Shown here: one piece after another, positions 3,971 through 49,245 of the stretch
How the letters are laid out: each line of letters opens with the position of its first letter
How positions within the stretch are numbered: position 1 is the first letter of the stretch
Origin: Streptomyces viridochromogenes DSM 40736
GTDB lineage: Bacteria > Actinomycetota > Actinomycetes > Streptomycetales > Streptomycetaceae
NCBI RefSeq assembly: GCF_000158955.1
Contig: NZ_GG657757.1
Span: 3,151,866 to 3,215,865, forward strand
DNA: 64,000 nucleotides
Reading direction: 5' to 3'
Position numbers and translations under genes: made by a program
The notes under the pieces: generated by a model
What the model was told of the DNA's origin: nothing
Databases searched by the model: none
The model's input: the letters and a program-made list of their open reading frames with translations, nothing else

Positions 3971-4100
3971 GCGGCCAACTCCTCTTCCTGACAGGCGCGA
4001 TGTCAAGCTCCAGCCCCTGGCAGCGTAGCCAGCGCCGACCCCACTCTGTGAGTGATTCAGCACAGAACGCAGTCACCGCAGGTGAGAACGGCAGGCAGAA

Positions 4101-41593: not shown

Positions 41594-43279
41594 TCAGCCC
41601 AGGTGCGTCGGCGCGAACATCCGCAGCACGGCGGGGAGCAGGACCACGGAGGGCCCGGGTGTCTCCAGCGCCTTCGCGAGGTCCCGCTCCAGCGTCTCCG
41701 GGGTCGTCCGGACCCCGGGGACGCCGAAGGACTCCGCCAGTGCCACGTAGTCCGGCCGGGTCAGTTCCGTCGCGGTCGCCTCGCCGAACGCGTCGTTCAT
41801 GTACTCGCGCAGGATGCCGTAGCCGCCGTCGTCGACGATCAGCCAGGTGACGTTCAGGTCGTACTGGCGGGCAGTCGCCAGCTCGGCGATCGAGTACAGG
41901 GCGCCGCCGTCCCCGGAGACGGCGAGGACCGGCCGGGTCGGATCGGCCGCCGCGGCGCCGAGGGCCGCCGGGAAGGCGTAGCCGAGGCCGCCCGCGCCCT
42001 GCGCGGAGTGCATGTGGTTGGGGCCCTTGGCGTCGAAGGCCGACCAGGCCCAGTAGGCGAGGATCGTCATGTCCCAGAAGGACGGGGAGTCGGCGGGCAG
42101 CGCCCCGCGCACGGACGCCAGGACGTCCTGCTCCAGGGTGAGTTCCTGGGCGGCGATGCGCTCGGTGACCTTGGCGAGCACCTCCAGGACGCGCTCCGGA
42201 GCCGCCGGGTCCTGTCGTTCGGACACCGTCTCCAGCAGCGCCTGCAACGCGAGCCGGGCGTCGGCGTGGATGCCCAGCGCCGGGTGGTTGGACTCCAGTT
42301 TGCCGAGGTCCGCCTCGATCTGGACGACCCGGCCGCGCGGCTTGAACGTGTGGTAGTTCGAGGAGAGTTCACCGAGTCCCGAGCCGACCACCAGGAGGAC
42401 GTCCGCGTCCTCCAGGAAGTCCGTGGTGTGCCGGTCCTCGATCCAGGACTGGAGCGACAGCGGGTGCTTCCAGGGGAAGGCGCCCTTGCCGCCGGGGGTC
42501 GTGACGACCGGGGCCGCGAGCAGCTCCGCCAGCTGCCTCAGCTTGCCCGAGGCGTCCGCCCGTACCACTCCGCCGCCCGCGATGATCGCCGGGCGTTCGG
42601 CATGAGACAGCAAGTGGGCGGCCAGGGCGGTCAGTTCGGGGCGCGGCGGCAGCTCCTCGGGGAAGGCGTCGCCGCCGGTCACGACCGGGATCGCCGTCGG
42701 CGCGAGCAGCACGTCCTGCGGGATCTCGACCCACACCGGGCCGTGCGGGGCGGTCAGTGCCGACTTCCAGGCCGCCTCGATCGCGGAGGGGATCTGCGAC
42801 TGGGTGCGGACGGTGTGGACCGACTTCACCACGCCCCGGAACGAGGCCGCCTGGTCGGGCAGTTCGTGGAGGTAGCCGTGCCGGCCGCCGCCGAGCCCCG
42901 CCGTCGGGATCTGGCTGCTGATCGCCAGCACGGGCGCGGAGGCGGCCGCCGCCTCCTGGAGAGCGGCCAGGGAGGTCAGGGCGCCCGGCCCGGTCGACAG
43001 CAGCAGGGGCGCGGCCTCGCCGGTGATCCGGCCGTAGGCGTCCGCCGCGAACCCGGCGTTGTTCTCCACCCGCAGGCCGACGTACCTCAGGGCCGAGCGG
43101 CGCAGGGCGTCGAACATGCCGAGCGCGTGCTGGCCGGGCAGACCGAAGACGGTCGTGGCGCCCAGCCCGGCCAGCGTCTCCACGACCAGGTCCCCGCCGC
43201 TCCGGCCGGGTGGAGGGTTGAGGGCGGCCTCCGTCTGGGCGGGCGTCGGGCGGAGTACCAGGTCGTGGTCGTGAGTCAC
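41594..43279 (-). CDS. Thiamine diphosphate-dependent enzyme (acetolactate synthase-like; AruI candidate)
   Basis: A 561-residue ThDP enzyme of the acetolactate synthase/decarboxylase fold. The N-terminal domain has [14 protein letters not shown] near residue 47 and the cofactor-activating Glu in [15 protein letters not shown] near 72. The C-terminal domain has the ThDP motif [15 protein letters not shown] near 455 to [13 protein letters not shown] near 485. No ALS regulatory partner is present. Its start overlaps the ureohydrolase stop (GTGA). In Pseudomonas a similar enzyme, AruI, decarboxylates 2-ketoarginine to 4-guanidinobutyraldehyde, which leads to the ureohydrolase substrate; the same role is a reasonable guess here, not proof. 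Confidence 0.88.
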
Positions 43280-44259
43280 TTCGCTTCCGAGTCCTTCCGG
43301 GCCGCGGCGATCTGGCGCGACATGATCGTGGTCAGTTCGTACGCGGTGTGGGAGGCCGCCACCGACGTGATCTCCGCGTGGTCGTACGCGGGGGCCACCT
43401 CGACGACGTCGGCCGACACCAGGTTGCAGGATGCCAGGCCGCGCAGGATCTCCAGCAGCTCGCGCGAGGTCATGCCACCGGCCTCGGGCGTGCCGGTGCC
43501 GGGCGCGTGGGCCGGGTCGAGGCAGTCGATGTCGATGGAGATGTACAGCGGGCGGTCGCCGATGCGCTGGCGGAGCTGGTCGGCGACCTCGTCGGCGCCG
43601 CGCCGGTAGACGTCGGCCGAGGTGACGATGCCGAAGCCCATCTTCTCGTCGTCGGTGAGGTCCTGCTTGCCGTAGAGCGGGCCGCGGGTGCCGACGTGGG
43701 ACAGGGCGGAGGTGTCGAGGATGCCCTCCTCCACCGCGCGGCGGAACGGGGTGCCGTGCGTGTACTCGGCGCCGAAGTAGGTGTCCCAGGTGTCGAGGTG
43801 GGCGTCGAAGTGGAGCAGGGCCACCGGGCCGTGCTTCTTCGCCACCGACCGCAGCAGGGGCAGCGCGATGGTGTGGTCGCCGCCGAGGGTCATCAGCCGG
43901 GCGCCGGTGCCGAGCAGGTCGTCCGCGGCGGCCTCGACGGTCTCGACGGCCTCGTTGATGTTGAACGGGTTGACGGCGATGTCGCCGCCGTCCGCGACCT
44001 GGGCGAGGGCGAACGGGGAGGCGTCCTGCGCCGGGTTGTACGGGCGCAGCAGCCGGGACGCCTCGCGGATCGCGTTGCCGCCGAAGCGGGCGCCCGGCCG
44101 GTACGAGACACCCGAGTCGAACGGCACGCCGACCACGGCGACATCGGCCCGTCCGCCGACCTCGTCGAGCCGGGGAAGCCGGGCGAAGGTCGCGGGTCCG
44201 GCGTACCGAGGGACGCGGGAGGAGTCGACGGGCCCGCGGGGAGTCTCGTTGCTGCTCAT
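43276..44259 (-). CDS. speB: Ureohydrolase (agmatinase/guanidinobutyrase type)
   Basis: A 327-residue binuclear manganese hydrolase of the arginase family. Metal ligands are seen in [12 protein letters not shown] near residue 125, [14 protein letters not shown] near 148, and [19 protein letters not shown] near 233. GTPE and the TSRELLEIL region are shared by agmatinases and 4-guanidinobutyrases; the sequence alone does not settle which guanidino compound is cut. Products would be urea and an amine or amino acid. It is flanked by a symporter and a ThDP enzyme on the same strand and controlled presumably by the divergent PucR protein. The symbol follows common annotation and does not imply proven agmatine use. 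Confidence 0.88.
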
Positions 44260-44315
44260 GAAGAAATGCCTTCTTTCCTACGCTTCATCGCGTATGTACT
44301 GCTTGCCTTATGACC

Positions 44316-45797
44316 TTACCGGGGAGCCGCGGCCGGTTCGGACGCGAGTTCGGACTCGGGTCCGGGTGCCCGTCCCGCGAGCCGCTCGCGCCAGGCGGCG
44401 AGGACGGCGGCGTCGGTGGCGGGGGTGGCCAGGGAGACGACCAGATAGGCGGCGAGCGAGGCCAGCAGCCCGTAGTAGACGGGCTCGTTGGCGAGGATGC
44501 CGTACGTCGCCATCAGGACGATGACCGCGAGCCCGCCGACCACGACGGAGGCGAGGGCGCCGTAGACCGTGCCCCGCTTCCACAGCAGCCCGCCGAGGAT
44601 CGGCACGAGCAGTCCGCCGACGAGGAGGTTGTAGGCGACGGTCAGTGCCTCCACGACGTTGTCGATCGCGATGGCCGTGCAGATGACCGCGAGGCCCATG
44701 ATCAGGATGAAGAGACGGTTGCCCTTCACCTCGTCGTGCTCCTCCTGGCCTTCGGCCGGCGCCTTGACGATCCCCCGCAGCCGGGACCAGATGTCGTTGT
44801 TGGCGACGGTGGCACAGGCGATCAGCGCGCCGGAGGACGTCGACATCACGGCGGCGAGGGCGGCGGCCAGCACCAAGCCGCGCACACCGACGGGCAGTTC
44901 CTCCTTCACGATGGTCGCGAAGGCGTCGTCCGGGCTGCCGAGCTTCGGGTACAGCACCTTGGCCGCCGTGCCGATGACGGCACCGGCGAGGGCGTACGCG
45001 AGGCAGTAGGTGCCGGCGACGGTCCCGCCCCACTTGGCGGTGGTGTCGCTGCGGGCGGTGAACACGCGCTGCCAGATGTCCTGCCCGATGAGCATGCCGA
45101 AGGTGTAGATCAGCACGTAGGTGAAGATCGTCTCGCCGCCGATGCCCAGCGGGTCGAAGTACTCGGTGGGCAGCTGGGCCTTCATCTCGCTGAACCCGCC
45201 CGCCTTCACGACGGCGATCGGCAGCAGCAGGAGCAGCACGCCGATGGTCTTCACGACGAACTGCACCATGTCCGTCAGGGTGATCGACCACATCCCGCCG
45301 AGGGTGGAGTACGCGACGACGATCGAGCCGCCGAGGACGATCGCGAGCGTGCGGTTCATGTCGAACAGGACGTCGAAGATCGTGGCGTACGCGATGGTCG
45401 AGGTCACCGCGAGCATCAGGGTGTACGCCCACATGACGAGACCGGAGATGACTCCGGCCCGGCCGCCGTAGCGCAGGTCGAGCATCTCGGAGACGGTGTA
45501 GACCTTCAGCCGGGCGATGCGGGCGGAGAAGAAGACGGACAGGGCGAGCAGGCCGAGGCCGATGGTGAAGACCATCCAGGCACCGGACAGGCCGTACTGG
45601 TAGCCCAGCCCCACACCGCCGATGGTGGAGGCGCCGCCGAGGACGATCGCCGCCATGGTGCCGGAGTACATGGCCGGGCCGAGGCGGCGGCCGGCCACGA
45701 GGAACTCGCTCTTGGAGCGGGCGCGGCGCATGCCCCACCAGCCCATGGCCAGCATTCCGGCCAGATAGGCGACGATCACGAGATAGTCGACGGCCAT
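44316..45797 (-). CDS. Sodium:solute symporter
   Basis: A 493-residue membrane carrier of the SSS family with about 13 spans. Family features include FLVAGRRLGPAMYSGTMAA near residue 32, GGASTIGGVGLGYQYGLSGAW near 53, GGMWSITLTDMVQF near 165, and ALAAVMSTSSGALIACATVANNDIW near 305, where Ser residues form the sodium site. The substrate is likely an amino acid derivative, polyamine or guanidino compound given the ureohydrolase 57 bases downstream. AAGGAGGTCCTC before the ATG decides the start; the frame is open for about 950 more codons upstream antisense to other genes and should not be joined. It is divergent from the PucR gene. Confidence 0.92.
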   Translation of the reverse strand: MAVDYLVIVAYLAGMLAMGWWGMRRARSKSEFLVAGRRLGPAMYSGTMAAIVLGGASTIGGVGLGYQYGLSGAWMVFTIGLGLLALSVFFSARIARLKVYTVSEMLDLRYGGRAGVISGLVMWAYTLMLAVTSTIAYATIFDVLFDMNRTLAIVLGGSIVVAYSTLGGMWSITLTDMVQFVVKTIGVLLLLLPIAVVKAGGFSEMKAQLPTEYFDPLGIGGETIFTYVLIYTFGMLIGQDIWQRVFTARSDTTAKWGGTVAGTYCLAYALAGAVIGTAAKVLYPKLGSPDDAFATIVKEELPVGVRGLVLAAALAAVMSTSSGALIACATVANNDIWSRLRGIVKAPAEGQEEHDEVKGNRLFILIMGLAVICTAIAIDNVVEALTVAYNLLVGGLLVPILGGLLWKRGTVYGALASVVVGGLAVIVLMATYGILANEPVYYGLLASLAAYLVVSLATPATDAAVLAAWRERLAGRAPGPESELASEPAAAPR

Positions 45798-45929
45798 GAG
45801 GACCTCCTTCGCACACGCTGAGTGGCGGGAGACGAGGTTGACGAGCACTGACACTAGGTGGCCGGAAAGCGACTGCGAAGTGTACGTTTCATCCATTCGA
45901 GCCGGTGCCGGGTGGAGGGAACGCACATC

Positions 45930-47450
45930 ATGCCGGACCCCGCTGTCCCGCCCACGCCCCCTGTACGGCTCTCCGCCCTGCTGGCCCGCGAGGACCTGGC
46001 CCTGCGCCGGATCGCCGGCCCGGACGACCCCGCCGCCGTCGTCCACTGGGTGCACACCTCGGAGATGGCGGATCCGTATCCGTATCTGCTGGGCGGGGAG
46101 CTGCTGCTCACGGCGGGCGTGCACATCCCGGACGCGGCGGGGTCGGATGGGGGTCCCCCCTGCTCGAGCGAAGCCGAGAGCTTGGGGGACTACTTCGACG
46201 ACTACGTGGCCAGGATCGTCGCCGCGGGCGGTGCGGCCCTCGGCTTCGGTGTGGCGCCGGTGCACGACACGGTGCCGAGGGCACTGGTCGCGGCCTGCGA
46301 GACCCACGGTCTGCCGCTGCTCGAGGTGCCGCCGCAGACCACCTTCTCGGGCGTGGCCCGCGCGGTCTGGCAGCTGATGGCCCAAGCCCGCCTGGCGGAA
46401 CTCCGCCGCGTCACGGAGGCCCAGCGGAGCCTCACCGCCGCCGCCTCCCGCCCCGACCCGGTCCCGTCGGTCCTCCGGCAGCTCGCCCAGCGCCTCGGCG
46501 GCCGGGCGGTGCTGTACGGGCCGGAGGGGGCGGAGATCGCGGGTGCGGGCCGGAACCCCGGGGAGGAGGCGAGCTCGGCACTGGCGGGGCTGGCCGGGGT
46601 GGTGCGGCCGACGGGCGACGGGCCCGCGGGGCCTCCCCACCCGACCTCCGCCACCGACACCGTCGCCGGCACCCATCTCGCCGCCTACGCCCTCGGCGCC
46701 GGGCACGGCTTCGTGCTCGGGGTCGCCACCCCGGAGCGCGCGCCGGGGGACCACACCGTCGCCTCCGTCGCGGCCGTGCTGCTCTCCCTCCTCACCGGCG
46801 AGCAGCAGAGCGGCACCGGCACCGCCCGTTCCTCCGCGCTCGTGCGGCTGCTGCTCGGGGCTCCGCCCGAGGAGGTCGCGCCGCTGCTCGGCGGCCGGCG
46901 GTGGGTCGTGGTGCACGCCCGGCCCGACGGGCAGGGCCCCGCGGACGCCGTCGCGGCCTCCGCGCTGGGCGCCGCGCTCGGCTCCGCCCTGGTCGACCCG
47001 GCGGGCGACGTCGTACGGGTCCTGGTCCCGGCCGAGCGGGCACCGGCCCCGCTGCCCGGCTGGACCCTGGGCGTCAGCGCAGCCGCGGCCCCGGAGGACT
47101 GGCCCGCCGCCGACACCCAGGCGGCCCGCGCCCTGGCCCGGGCCCGCGCGACCCGGACCCCGCTGCTGCGGCACGGCCCGCGCCCCGCCCTGGCCGACCT
47201 GGTCCCGCCCGGCGAGGCGGCGGCCCACGCCCGCGCGCTCCTCTCCCCCGTCACGGCACACCCCGCGCTCACCGAGACCCTGCGCACCTGGCTGTCCCTG
47301 CACGGCAGTTGGGACCGCACGGCCGTCGCCCTGTCCGTGCACCGCAACACGGTGCGGCAGCGCATCACCCGGTGCGCGACGCTGCTGGAGACGGACCTGG
47401 AGGACCCGGACGTCCGCATGGAACTCTGGTTCGCGCTGCGGCACATCTGA
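45930..47450 (+). CDS. PucR-family transcriptional regulator
   Basis: A 506-residue regulator. The N-terminal PucR domain includes LLGGELLLTAGVHIPDA near residue 52 and GFGVAPVHDTVPRALVAACE near 105. The C-terminal HTH_30 is clear (LTETLRTWLSLHGSWDRTAVAL, then SVHRNTVRQRITRCATLLETDLEDPDVR near 465-495). GGAGGGA precedes the ATG. PucR proteins usually activate purine, amino-acid or amine catabolism; the divergent symporter/ureohydrolase/ThDP operon is its likely target. Residues 73-87 (DGGPPCSSEAESLGD) are encoded by a palindromic dispersed repeat and look like an insertion in the N-terminal domain. Confidence 0.92.
   Translation: MPDPAVPPTPPVRLSALLAREDLALRRIAGPDDPAAVVHWVHTSEMADPYPYLLGGELLLTAGVHIPDAAGSDGGPPCSSEAESLGDYFDDYVARIVAAGGAALGFGVAPVHDTVPRALVAACETHGLPLLEVPPQTTFSGVARAVWQLMAQARLAELRRVTEAQRSLTAAASRPDPVPSVLRQLAQRLGGRAVLYGPEGAEIAGAGRNPGEEASSALAGLAGVVRPTGDGPAGPPHPTSATDTVAGTHLAAYALGAGHGFVLGVATPERAPGDHTVASVAAVLLSLLTGEQQSGTGTARSSALVRLLLGAPPEEVAPLLGGRRWVVVHARPDGQGPADAVAASALGAALGSALVDPAGDVVRVLVPAERAPAPLPGWTLGVSAAAAPEDWPAADTQAARALARARATRTPLLRHGPRPALADLVPPGEAAAHARALLSPVTAHPALTETLRTWLSLHGSWDRTAVALSVHRNTVRQRITRCATLLETDLEDPDVRMELWFALRHI
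46148..46189 (+). repeat. Dispersed palindromic repeat inside the PucR gene
   Basis: A 42-base element with end arms TCCCCC and GGGGGA and a centre CTGCTCGAGCGAAGCCGAGA, as in a well-known intergenic repeat of Streptomyces. Its length is a multiple of three and it keeps the frame, adding about 14 residues. The neighbouring protein sequence (HIPDAAGS before, YFDDYVARI after) looks like normal PucR on each side. Confidence 0.75.
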
Positions 47451-47530
47451 GTATGTGAGCGGCATCCTTCTGAGTACGTGACGCACATCCCAGGGTCCGA
47501 TACGCCAGGGACTCCCACAGGGGGCTGCCT

Positions 47531-47536
47531 CACAAT
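47531..47536 (+). promoter_or_regulatory. Putative -10 box for leaderless phosphatase mRNA
   Basis: CACAAT, then GGGTGGC, then ATG. There is no Shine-Dalgarno at a usual distance. Confidence 0.4.
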
Positions 47537-47543
47537 GGGTGGC

Positions 47544-48332
47544 ATGCCGATACCCGGGACACCCAGCCGCGCCGAACTCGTCGACCACCTCGTCAGGACG
47601 CGCATCGCGGGCGACGTCGCCACCCCCCGCGAGAACAACCTCTCCCACTACCGCAAGCTGGCGAACGGCGACCGCCACTACTGGCTGGGACTGGAACTCG
47701 GCGACCGCTGGAGCGACGAGCAGGACGTCCTCGCGGTGATGGCGGAACGGGTCGGCGTGAACGACGACCCCGAGCACCGGTACGGCCAGGACACCATCGA
47801 CCCCGAGCTGACGGTCGCGGCCCTGGACCGGCTCGCCGGGCGGCTGCGCAAGGCCGCCGACGGCGGGCAGCGGGTCCTCTTCGCCACCGGCCACCCCGGC
47901 GGCCTGCTCGACGTCCACCGCGCGACCGCGTCCGCGCTGCGCGCGGCGGGCTGCGAGATCGTCGTCATCCCGGACGGCCTGACGACGGACGAGGGCTATG
48001 TGATGCAGTTCGCGGACGTGGCGGTGCTGGAGCACGGCGCCACCTTGTGGCACACCCACTCGGGCGAACCGATGAAGGCCATCCTGACCGCCCTGGAGCG
48101 CGCGGGCCGCCCGCTGCCCGACCTGGTCGTCGCCGACCACGGCTGGGCGGGGTACGCGGGACAGCACGGCGTGGACTCCGTCGGCTACGCCGACTGCAAC
48201 GACCCGGCTCTCTTCGTCGCCGAGGCCGAGGGCACCGTGCAGGTGACGGTGCCCCTCGACGACCACGTCATCAGCCCGCGCCACTACGACCCGATGACGG
48301 CGTACCTGCTGGCGGAGGCGGGCCTGAGCTAG
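47544..48332 (+). CDS. Phosphatase-like protein (Streptomyces 'phosphatase' family)
   Basis: A 262-residue cytoplasmic protein that matches a conserved actinomycete family annotated as phosphatase (Pfam PF15698, by memory). Characteristic stretches are NNLSHYRKLANGDRHYWLG near residue 32, FATGHPGGLLDVHRATASAL near 115, EHGATLWHTHSGEPM near 165 and VVADHGWAGYAGQHG near 195, with His and Asp residues that could bind metal. The substrate is unknown. The start MPIPGTPSRAELV follows a -10-like box by seven bases; an ATG three codons earlier is possible. Its stop overlaps the convergent tesB stop by four bases. Confidence 0.75.
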   Translation: MPIPGTPSRAELVDHLVRTRIAGDVATPRENNLSHYRKLANGDRHYWLGLELGDRWSDEQDVLAVMAERVGVNDDPEHRYGQDTIDPELTVAALDRLAGRLRKAADGGQRVLFATGHPGGLLDVHRATASALRAAGCEIVVIPDGLTTDEGYVMQFADVAVLEHGATLWHTHSGEPMKAILTALERAGRPLPDLVVADHGWAGYAGQHGVDSVGYADCNDPALFVAEAEGTVQVTVPLDDHVISPRHYDPMTAYLLAEAGLS

Positions 48333-49210
48333 AGGGCGTCCGCGTCGCGCGGGACGCGGACCACGCCCTCCTGGATGACCGAGATGGCCAGCTGCCCGTC
48401 CTGCGTGTAGATCCGGGCCTGTCCCAGTCCCCGGCCGCCGTACGCGGACGGGGACTCCTGGTCGTAGAGCAGCCACTCGTCGGCGCGGAACGGCCGGTGG
48501 AACCACATGGCGTGGTCCAGGGAGGCCCCGACGACGTCCCCGACGGCCCAGCCGCCGCGTCCGTGCGCGAGCAGCACGGAGTCGAGCAGTGTCATGTCGG
48601 AGACGTAGGTGGCGAGGACGACGTGCAGCAGCGGGTCGTCGGCCAGCTTCCCGTTCGTGCGGAACCACACCTGGCTGTGCGGCTCGCGCGGCTCGCCGAA
48701 CTTCCCGTACGGCGGCTCGTCGACGTACCGCAGGTCGACGGCGGCCCGTGCCTCGATGAACCTCTCCACGACCACGGGGTCGAGATGGCCGTACCCGCGC
48801 AGCCGCTCCTCCCCGGTGGGCAGCGTGGCGGGATCGGGCGAGGCGGGCATCGGCGCCTGGTGGTCCAGCCCGTCCTCGTACGCCTGGAACGACGCCGAGA
48901 GGTGGAAGATCGGTTTGCCGTGCTGGACGGCGACCACCCGGCGGGTGGTGAAGGAGCGGCCGTCGCGGATCCGGTCCACGGTGTAGACGATGGGCGCGCC
49001 GGGATCACCGGGGCGCAGGAAGTACGCGTGGAGGGAGTGTGCGTGCCGGTCCGCGGGGACCGTCCGCCCGGCGGCGACGAGCGCCTGCGCCGCGACCTGC
49101 CCGCCGAAGACCCGTGGCACGACGGCGGACCGGGACCGGCCGCGGAATATGTCCTCCTCGATCTGCTCGAGGTCGAGCAGATCGAGGAGGTCCTGGAGTG
49201 CATTGCTCAT
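48329..49210 (-). CDS. tesB: Acyl-CoA thioesterase II
   Basis: A 293-residue double-hotdog thioesterase that cleaves acyl-CoA to free acid and CoA. The N-terminal hotdog has RVFGGQVAAQALVAAGRTV near residue 33 and HSLHAYFLRPGDP near 60. The active-site set of TesB is present: Asp in GASLDHAMWFHRP near 212, Ser in DQESPSAYGGRGL near 235, and Gln in ISVIQEGVVR near 280. The ATG of MSNALQDLL has TACAAC seven bases before it and no Shine-Dalgarno, so a leaderless mRNA is likely; an in-frame GTG/ATG upstream is less fitting. It lies just after the acyl-CoA dehydrogenase gene. Confidence 0.92.
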   Translation of the reverse strand: MSNALQDLLDLLDLEQIEEDIFRGRSRSAVVPRVFGGQVAAQALVAAGRTVPADRHAHSLHAYFLRPGDPGAPIVYTVDRIRDGRSFTTRRVVAVQHGKPIFHLSASFQAYEDGLDHQAPMPASPDPATLPTGEERLRGYGHLDPVVVERFIEARAAVDLRYVDEPPYGKFGEPREPHSQVWFRTNGKLADDPLLHVVLATYVSDMTLLDSVLLAHGRGGWAVGDVVGASLDHAMWFHRPFRADEWLLYDQESPSAYGGRGLGQARIYTQDGQLAISVIQEGVVRVPRDADAL

Positions 49211-49217
49211 GGCAACT

Positions 49218-49223
49218 GTTGTA
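49218..49223 (-). promoter_or_regulatory. Putative -10 box for leaderless tesB mRNA
   Basis: Minus-strand TACAAC, then AGTTGCC, then the tesB ATG, with no Shine-Dalgarno. Confidence 0.4.
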
Positions 49224-49245
49224 CCGGCCACTGACTGCGGTCGGA

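Follow-up and report, generated by a model that had tools for sequence, protein, structure and literature searches.

How does a palindromic repeat that is scattered over a Streptomyces genome come to lie inside the reading frame of a regulator without interrupting it, and does the manner of its insertion have a part in this? The locus belongs to a window of 64,000 nucleotides from Streptomyces viridochromogenes DSM 40736, the whole stretch analysed here, in which the gene for a PucR-family regulator contains a short hairpin-forming block (Table 1). A sequence-only reading of the window had placed a 42-base element at 46148-46189 and credited it with an in-frame addition of about 14 residues. 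The element is present, but its left end had been set one base short: the unit spans 46147-46189, is 43 nt long and translates as GGPPCSSEAESLG in the pucR frame. With ungapped anchoring on both flanks, this insert replaces 4 nt of the empty orthologues (GCAC in L063, GGAC in L065; L numbers denote loci and G numbers genomes). The addition is indeed in frame, but since about four target bases are missing it amounts to 39 nt, or 13 residues net, and the comparison with homologues shows a clean gap of 13 rather than 14-15 residues. In the closest orthologues (90-91% identical) the loop reads IPEAAGSGTYFDD, against IPDAAGSDGGPPCSSEAESLGDYFDD in the PucR of DSM 40736, and its usual form among the orthologues examined is AAGSGTYFDD. 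An origin of the extra residues as conserved PucR domain sequence was rejected because they are absent from the nearest orthologues, which leaves the first reading intact on this point. It was also right that the open reading frame runs through the insert with no stop and that an ordinary PucR lies on either side, the PucR and HTH_30 domains both being recognised by Pfam, with PF07905 reported as two stretches.

Table 1. Features of the pucR locus (positions of the window)
Feature	Position	Strand	Basis
PucR-family regulator gene, 506 aa (PF07905 N-terminal domain, PF13556 helix-turn-helix)	45930..47450	+	ORF, Pfam, orthologues
Inserted unit, putatively mobile, 43 nt, ATGGGGG...GGGGGA	46147..46189	+	anchored ungapped to empty orthologues
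44-nt block with identical copies elsewhere in the genome	46146..46189	+	genome similarity search
Hairpin inside the unit, TCCCCCC..apex CTCGAGCGAAGCCGAG..GGGGGA	46154..46189	+	fold; arm limits by reading
Best PF07905 PucR domain stretch, residues 89-148, downstream of the insert	46194..46373	+	Pfam
HTH_30 C-terminal helix-turn-helix, residues 447-504	47268..47441	+	Pfam

The sequence at 46148-46192 folds at -24.4 kcal/mol (z -2.3), a value that is modest by shuffling, with 8 of 200 shuffles equally good. A structured RNA family was considered and rejected, as the Rfam search of 45900-46500 gave no family up to E=1. In the AlphaFold model of PucR with the insert, pLDDT is below 50 over residues 42-89, and in that of an insert-free orthologue it is below 50 over residues 25-56 and about 50 at the loop; because values around the loop are low in both models, surface exposure of the insert stays putative. 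A search for a solved PucR structure returned a single weak helix-turn-helix match (E 0.038). Close to pucR lie an arginase-family gene and a TPP enzyme (window 41594-49231), and the divergent gene beside it is one that we take to encode a sodium:solute symporter. Judging by this neighbourhood, the signal of PucR may be a guanidino or purine compound.

The element had been described as an abundant dispersed repeat, and the genome bears this out. With a sequence model derived from 22 copies, 44 copies are found in the 8.65-Mb genome at E <1e-6, so that the element is by no means unique to pucR; the strict core pattern matches 33 times, its reversed control 0 times. In a search with 40 of 213 candidates scored, the 44-nt block at 46146-46189 recurs at 100% identity in at least 8 other places. 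Within the window the element is single, with one exact core match; allowing up to 3 mismatches to the core gives 3 matches against 1.10 expected, a number that 8 of 100 shuffles also attain. All 44 copies were retrieved in 42 loci, each with flanks of about 4 kb, and a codon model that had been trained on the window served to call genes. At one locus (L132, around position 4000), a variant resembling the right half of the unit faces its own inverted copy (TCCCCCAAGCTC...GAGCTTGGGGGA).

No fewer than 11 of the 44 copies are genic; they occur on both strands and are read in several frames. The earlier expectation of a repeat that is normally intergenic thus holds for the larger part, the other 33 copies having no demonstrated genic location, but with about a quarter of the copies in genes the one in pucR is no lone stray. 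For ten of them the coding signal is positive on both sides in the gene, the weakest being L102 (1.7 downstream), which was kept; the eleventh, L125, lies in a small open reading frame that the gene caller missed and was added through reading of the frame and its homologues. Matches of the gene caller with a negative or absent coding signal on one side were left out (L106, L107, L119 with masked bases, L121 and L129, as well as L140 in G040). By Pfam, the host families are PucR, FAD oxidase/Fe-S protein, acyl-CoA dehydrogenase, MaoC hydratase, AMP-binding synthetase, DUF3418 helicase, mannosyltransferase, TetR, FAA hydrolase and L-rhamnose mutarotase, and the host of L125 is a small Cys-containing protein (MSEDDYCLIDAPRPPRAEGPPY...). 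In a second Streptomyces genome, G040, 3 genic copies were found among 15 examined, in phytase-like, DoxX and MFS genes; these 15 were hand-picked from 51 matches and are non-random, and 3 of 15 is not a rate. Pfam domains were found in 13 of the 14 genic hosts of the two genomes, L125 having been outside this search. As the same gene caller scores 87% of the window as coding, a share of 11 in 44 means a strong depletion from genes, if the window is typical. The small gene of L125 is also filled, at the identical position, in G009 (L338) and G007 (L333) and is empty in G022, G001, G020 and G016; judging by this distribution, the insertion may have been kept or gained repeatedly.

Relatives without the insert were found, by queries joining the two flanks, for all 11 genic copies of DSM 40736 and all 3 of G040. 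Measured against one relative or more, 13 of the 14 genic copies have a net gain of 36 or 39 nt by script, and L102 has one by eye. Units of 40 nt give a net gain of 36 and units of 43 nt a net gain of 39, with about 4 target bases lost. No target duplication is visible at the anchored genic sites, where the unit exceeds the net gain in length. For L102, which fell outside the ungapped anchoring, the raw nets of 40, 40 and 37 are read as 36, with 40 nt standing against GAGA between aligned protein stretches of equal length. For both L095 and L110 one of the relatives gives a net of 33, and L146 in G040, which has weak flanks, gives 39, 45 and 39. In L092, L120 and L118 the variant is one base longer, and either 5 bases are replaced or, if the unit starts at T, 4. 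The well-anchored genic sites, then, lose 4 (or 5) nt.

The commonest unit is 40 or 43 nt long (ATGGGGG, hairpin, GGGGGA), and with four bases lost either length adds whole codons (40-4=36, 43-4=39). Since the consensus units of both lengths are also free of stops in all six frames, the usual outcome of an insertion into a gene is a gain of 12 or 13 residues and not the destruction of the gene. Other lengths do occur. Measured by script over DSM 40736 and G040, 10 of 13 genic copies are 40 or 43 nt long against 28 of 45 other copies, with 16 of these 45 being G040 and weak copies and 4 further copies outside the measurement; the remaining lengths are 39, 41, 42, 44, 45, 47 and 49 nt, some of them due to the crude boundary rule of the script. 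Because unit length varies, frame neutrality is not assured for every copy, and many intergenic copies would, by their age or their origin, shift a reading frame.

Where no reading frame is at stake, the number of bases lost speaks more directly to the insertion reaction. The comparison with empty sites covers 12 of the 33 non-genic copies, and the nested pair L105/L106 was read in addition. Many intergenic copies in DSM 40736 sit within a different, larger repeat. This repeat, of about 80 nt or more (CTGCGGGCAGTCGTGCCGCTGGGGCGGCACGGGTGGGCG...), has dozens of copies (L285-L314) and is a frequent landing place, as in the composites L117 and L107. It also occurs empty: the best 30 of 47 listed matches run across both of its sites, and two of the empty copies (L285, L288) were aligned. 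Within it the unit replaces GCAC (L117, L101, L111, L124 and L115) or CAGC (L107). Against both empty copies the net is 39 for L117, L124 and L107; L111 gives 36 and 39, L101 39 and 44, and L115 39 and 47, a scatter that we put down to alignment at the ends of the stretches. Both sites are filled in L104 and L113, and the nets of 19-32 in L096, L098 and L122 match neither single site, so that these three look like recombinants between the two.

The unit has also inserted into itself, at the hairpin apex TC|GAGC|GAAG with loss of GAGC, both in the larger repeat between genes (L105/L106) and in pucR (L217 and L220). L105 and L106 (around 3980-4070) have different outer flanks and the same three-level nest of large repeat, unit, and unit in unit, as if the nested form had spread itself or been copied by gene conversion. 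Among the other intergenic sites, L108 has a net of 39 against 4 of 6 relatives, with one other filled and one at 38. The net of L118 is 39 against G009 only, where the unit replaces 5 bases, or 4 if the alternative boundary is used; its other relatives give 42, 55, 31, 47 and 35. L128, an intergenic variant of 44 nt, has a net of 40 by eye (raw values 45, 42 and 19), and nets not divisible by three are therefore possible outside genes. The intergenic sample is small, comprising two sites in the large repeat, one self-insertion, L108, L118 and L128, but a loss of about 4 nt at sites with no frame to keep would make frame neutrality partly a property of the reaction, beside selection.

The loop of PucR is also occupied in other species. 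By reading, 9 of 110 PucR orthologues (30 loci plus 80 from a second search) have the element or a remnant of it at this loop, namely DSM 40736, L217, L220, L222, L225, L209, L262 and the strongly decayed L250 and L241; L275 and other loops of odd length possibly conceal more decayed copies. The junction is the same in the clearer occupied orthologues, and the copies there are different sequence variants. In one close comparison, L220 is filled and its sister L226, 92% identical, is empty. As loop length also varies in orthologues without the element, this is a permissive place in the protein.

Across the genus, the strict pattern was found in 58 of 101 Streptomyces genomes in one draw; a second draw had it in 114 of 181, a count derived from a tally plus individual rows. 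A sister genus, represented by one genome, has the pattern too, and 15 further genomes of the order have 0 matches. Of the 11 copies listed for G095, 7 are no more than 80 nt from a contig start; a repeat that breaks short-read assemblies would be expected at such starts, and counts from draft genomes may therefore be lower bounds. Plasmid matches come from 18 records, all of Streptomyces, with 33 places. Among those listed, with the best place for each record, one lies beneath a transposase gene (H7) and four are in records without annotation; the regions H7, H1 and H9 were inspected for annotation only. Carriage by phages was rejected, the phage collection giving no match at E 1e-5. A description of the element in Streptomyces was not found in the open-access literature among the matches listed, which is weak evidence of absence, and the exact 18-nt core string had no match there. 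Short transcripts from palindromes of S. coelicolor, in the part of the source that was available, concern a different element (PMC4681348).

These comparisons very probably describe a very small, non-autonomous palindromic mobile element, nearly restricted to Streptomyces (this genus and one close relative), that would insert by target replacement with no visible duplication; we infer its mobility from differences between species. In the process that we propose, a trans-acting enzyme or the machinery of replication or repair would copy the hairpin into targets. Genes would tolerate the insert in a permissive loop, such as that of the PucR N-terminal domain, and selection would remove most other genic insertions as harmful. 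The effect on PucR itself is probably slight and near-neutral. We also advance, tentatively and as a possibility, that the insertion reaction is itself frame-neutral: units of 3n+1 nt would replace exactly four target bases, and such a unit would nest at its own apex and strike the same pucR codon junction across species. The converse, that frame neutrality is not built in and that selection retains the in-frame products of many deletion and unit lengths, seems to us unlikely but deserving of some weight. It is favoured by all 14 genic cases being in frame, by the depletion of genic copies and the more variable lengths of non-genic ones, and by the intergenic position of L128, the clearest net not divisible by three. 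Yet selection would allow losses of 1, 4, 7 or 10 nt, and what is seen at the well-anchored genic sites is 4 (or 5), with the same loss of 4 in the intergenic insertions of the large repeat and in the L105/L106 copy.

If a dedicated enzyme is involved, one candidate is a RAYT, an HUH tyrosine transposase of the IS200 type, which would make the element a REP. Size, a hairpin with an unpaired 5′ foot, and dispersed, mostly extragenic copies all suit this, and 28 of 101 Streptomyces genomes have a match to the Y1/RAYT-type family PF01797, among them the high-copy G040 and G073. The Pfam family search, however, gave no PF01797 match in DSM 40736, nor in G009 and G026, despite 33, 17 and 26 strict-pattern copies respectively; neither a GTAG nor a CGTC foot was found in the aligned copies, which by eye start ATGGGGG-like and end GGGGGA-like; and about 4 target nt are lost, all of which leaves a REP origin improbable. 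We give equally little probability to a single ancestral insertion in PucR followed by many losses. The common junction would agree with it, L222 and L262 are sisters on the PucR tree and may share one event, and parsimony does not orient the changes on that tree, whose count does not distinguish gain from loss. Nonetheless, the tree, built without the loop columns by a quick method and with many weak branches, has 8 changes for 9 occupied rows among 110. Losses would have had to restore the GSGTYFDD-like form again and again, the occupied copies differ in sequence variant, and the DSM 40736 copy is identical to present-day copies of its own genome. An adaptive modification of PucR, through the loop peptide or through an mRNA hairpin that tunes expression, appears very improbable: the repeated occupation of this loop in other species and the strength of the hairpin in the message speak for it, whereas the loop also varies in length with no element present, the pucR copy matches 8 other places over 44 nt and so has undergone no refinement, and unrelated genes are struck in several frames.

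Were the frame-neutral reaction true, it would be an undescribed mechanism of target replacement, perhaps one without a dedicated transposase, and would raise the question of what exchanges 4 nt for a hairpin of 40 or 43 nt. The four-base rule would then amount to a natural system for in-frame peptide insertion in a biotechnologically important genus. It would show one way in which selfish DNA lives within the genes of a gene-dense chromosome, and could explain recurrent indels of 12-13 residues in Streptomyces proteins. The filled, empty, nested and double sites collected here make the rule testable.

Several known systems come close to the proposed element. It is like MITEs in being small, non-autonomous mobile DNA, and unlike them in having no visible target-site duplication and no parent identified, PF01797 being the family searched. 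The very small mobile repeated elements of cyanobacteria that Elhai et al. in 2008 reportedly described are of similarly tiny size and nested in other repeats, and differ in sequence, host and insertion rule. The Streptomyces element also resembles Rickettsia palindromic elements (RPEs) and intragenic REPs, while fully matching the definition of neither. RPEs, according to the portion of the source available, are elements of about 150 bp in Rickettsia that have a conserved peptide and occur in frame in many unrelated genes (PMC10969869). The Streptomyces element is likewise a dispersed palindrome that adds a peptide in frame to unrelated genes, but its unit is mostly 40 or 43 nt, is read in several frames on both strands and replaces about 4 target bases. 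With REPs and REPINs, as far as the available extracts describe them, it shares a short palindrome that is mostly extragenic and sometimes genic (PMC3733652, PMC3116915); it differs in its lack of a GTAG/CGTC tag, in the absence of a PF01797 match from DSM 40736 and in the replacement of target bases. The SMRs of the archaeon Haloquadratum walsbyi, in the accessible part of their description, also have no transposase and no target duplication, insert into other mobile elements and are mobilised in a way that is unexplained (PMC3119063). Insertion into other elements, a criterion for SMRs, has its counterpart in the insertion of the Streptomyces unit into the larger repeat, whose own mobility is putative, and into itself; by the same partial account, SMRs are 80-110 bp long and have inverted terminal repeats, in contrast to the unit of 40 or 43 nt in Streptomyces.
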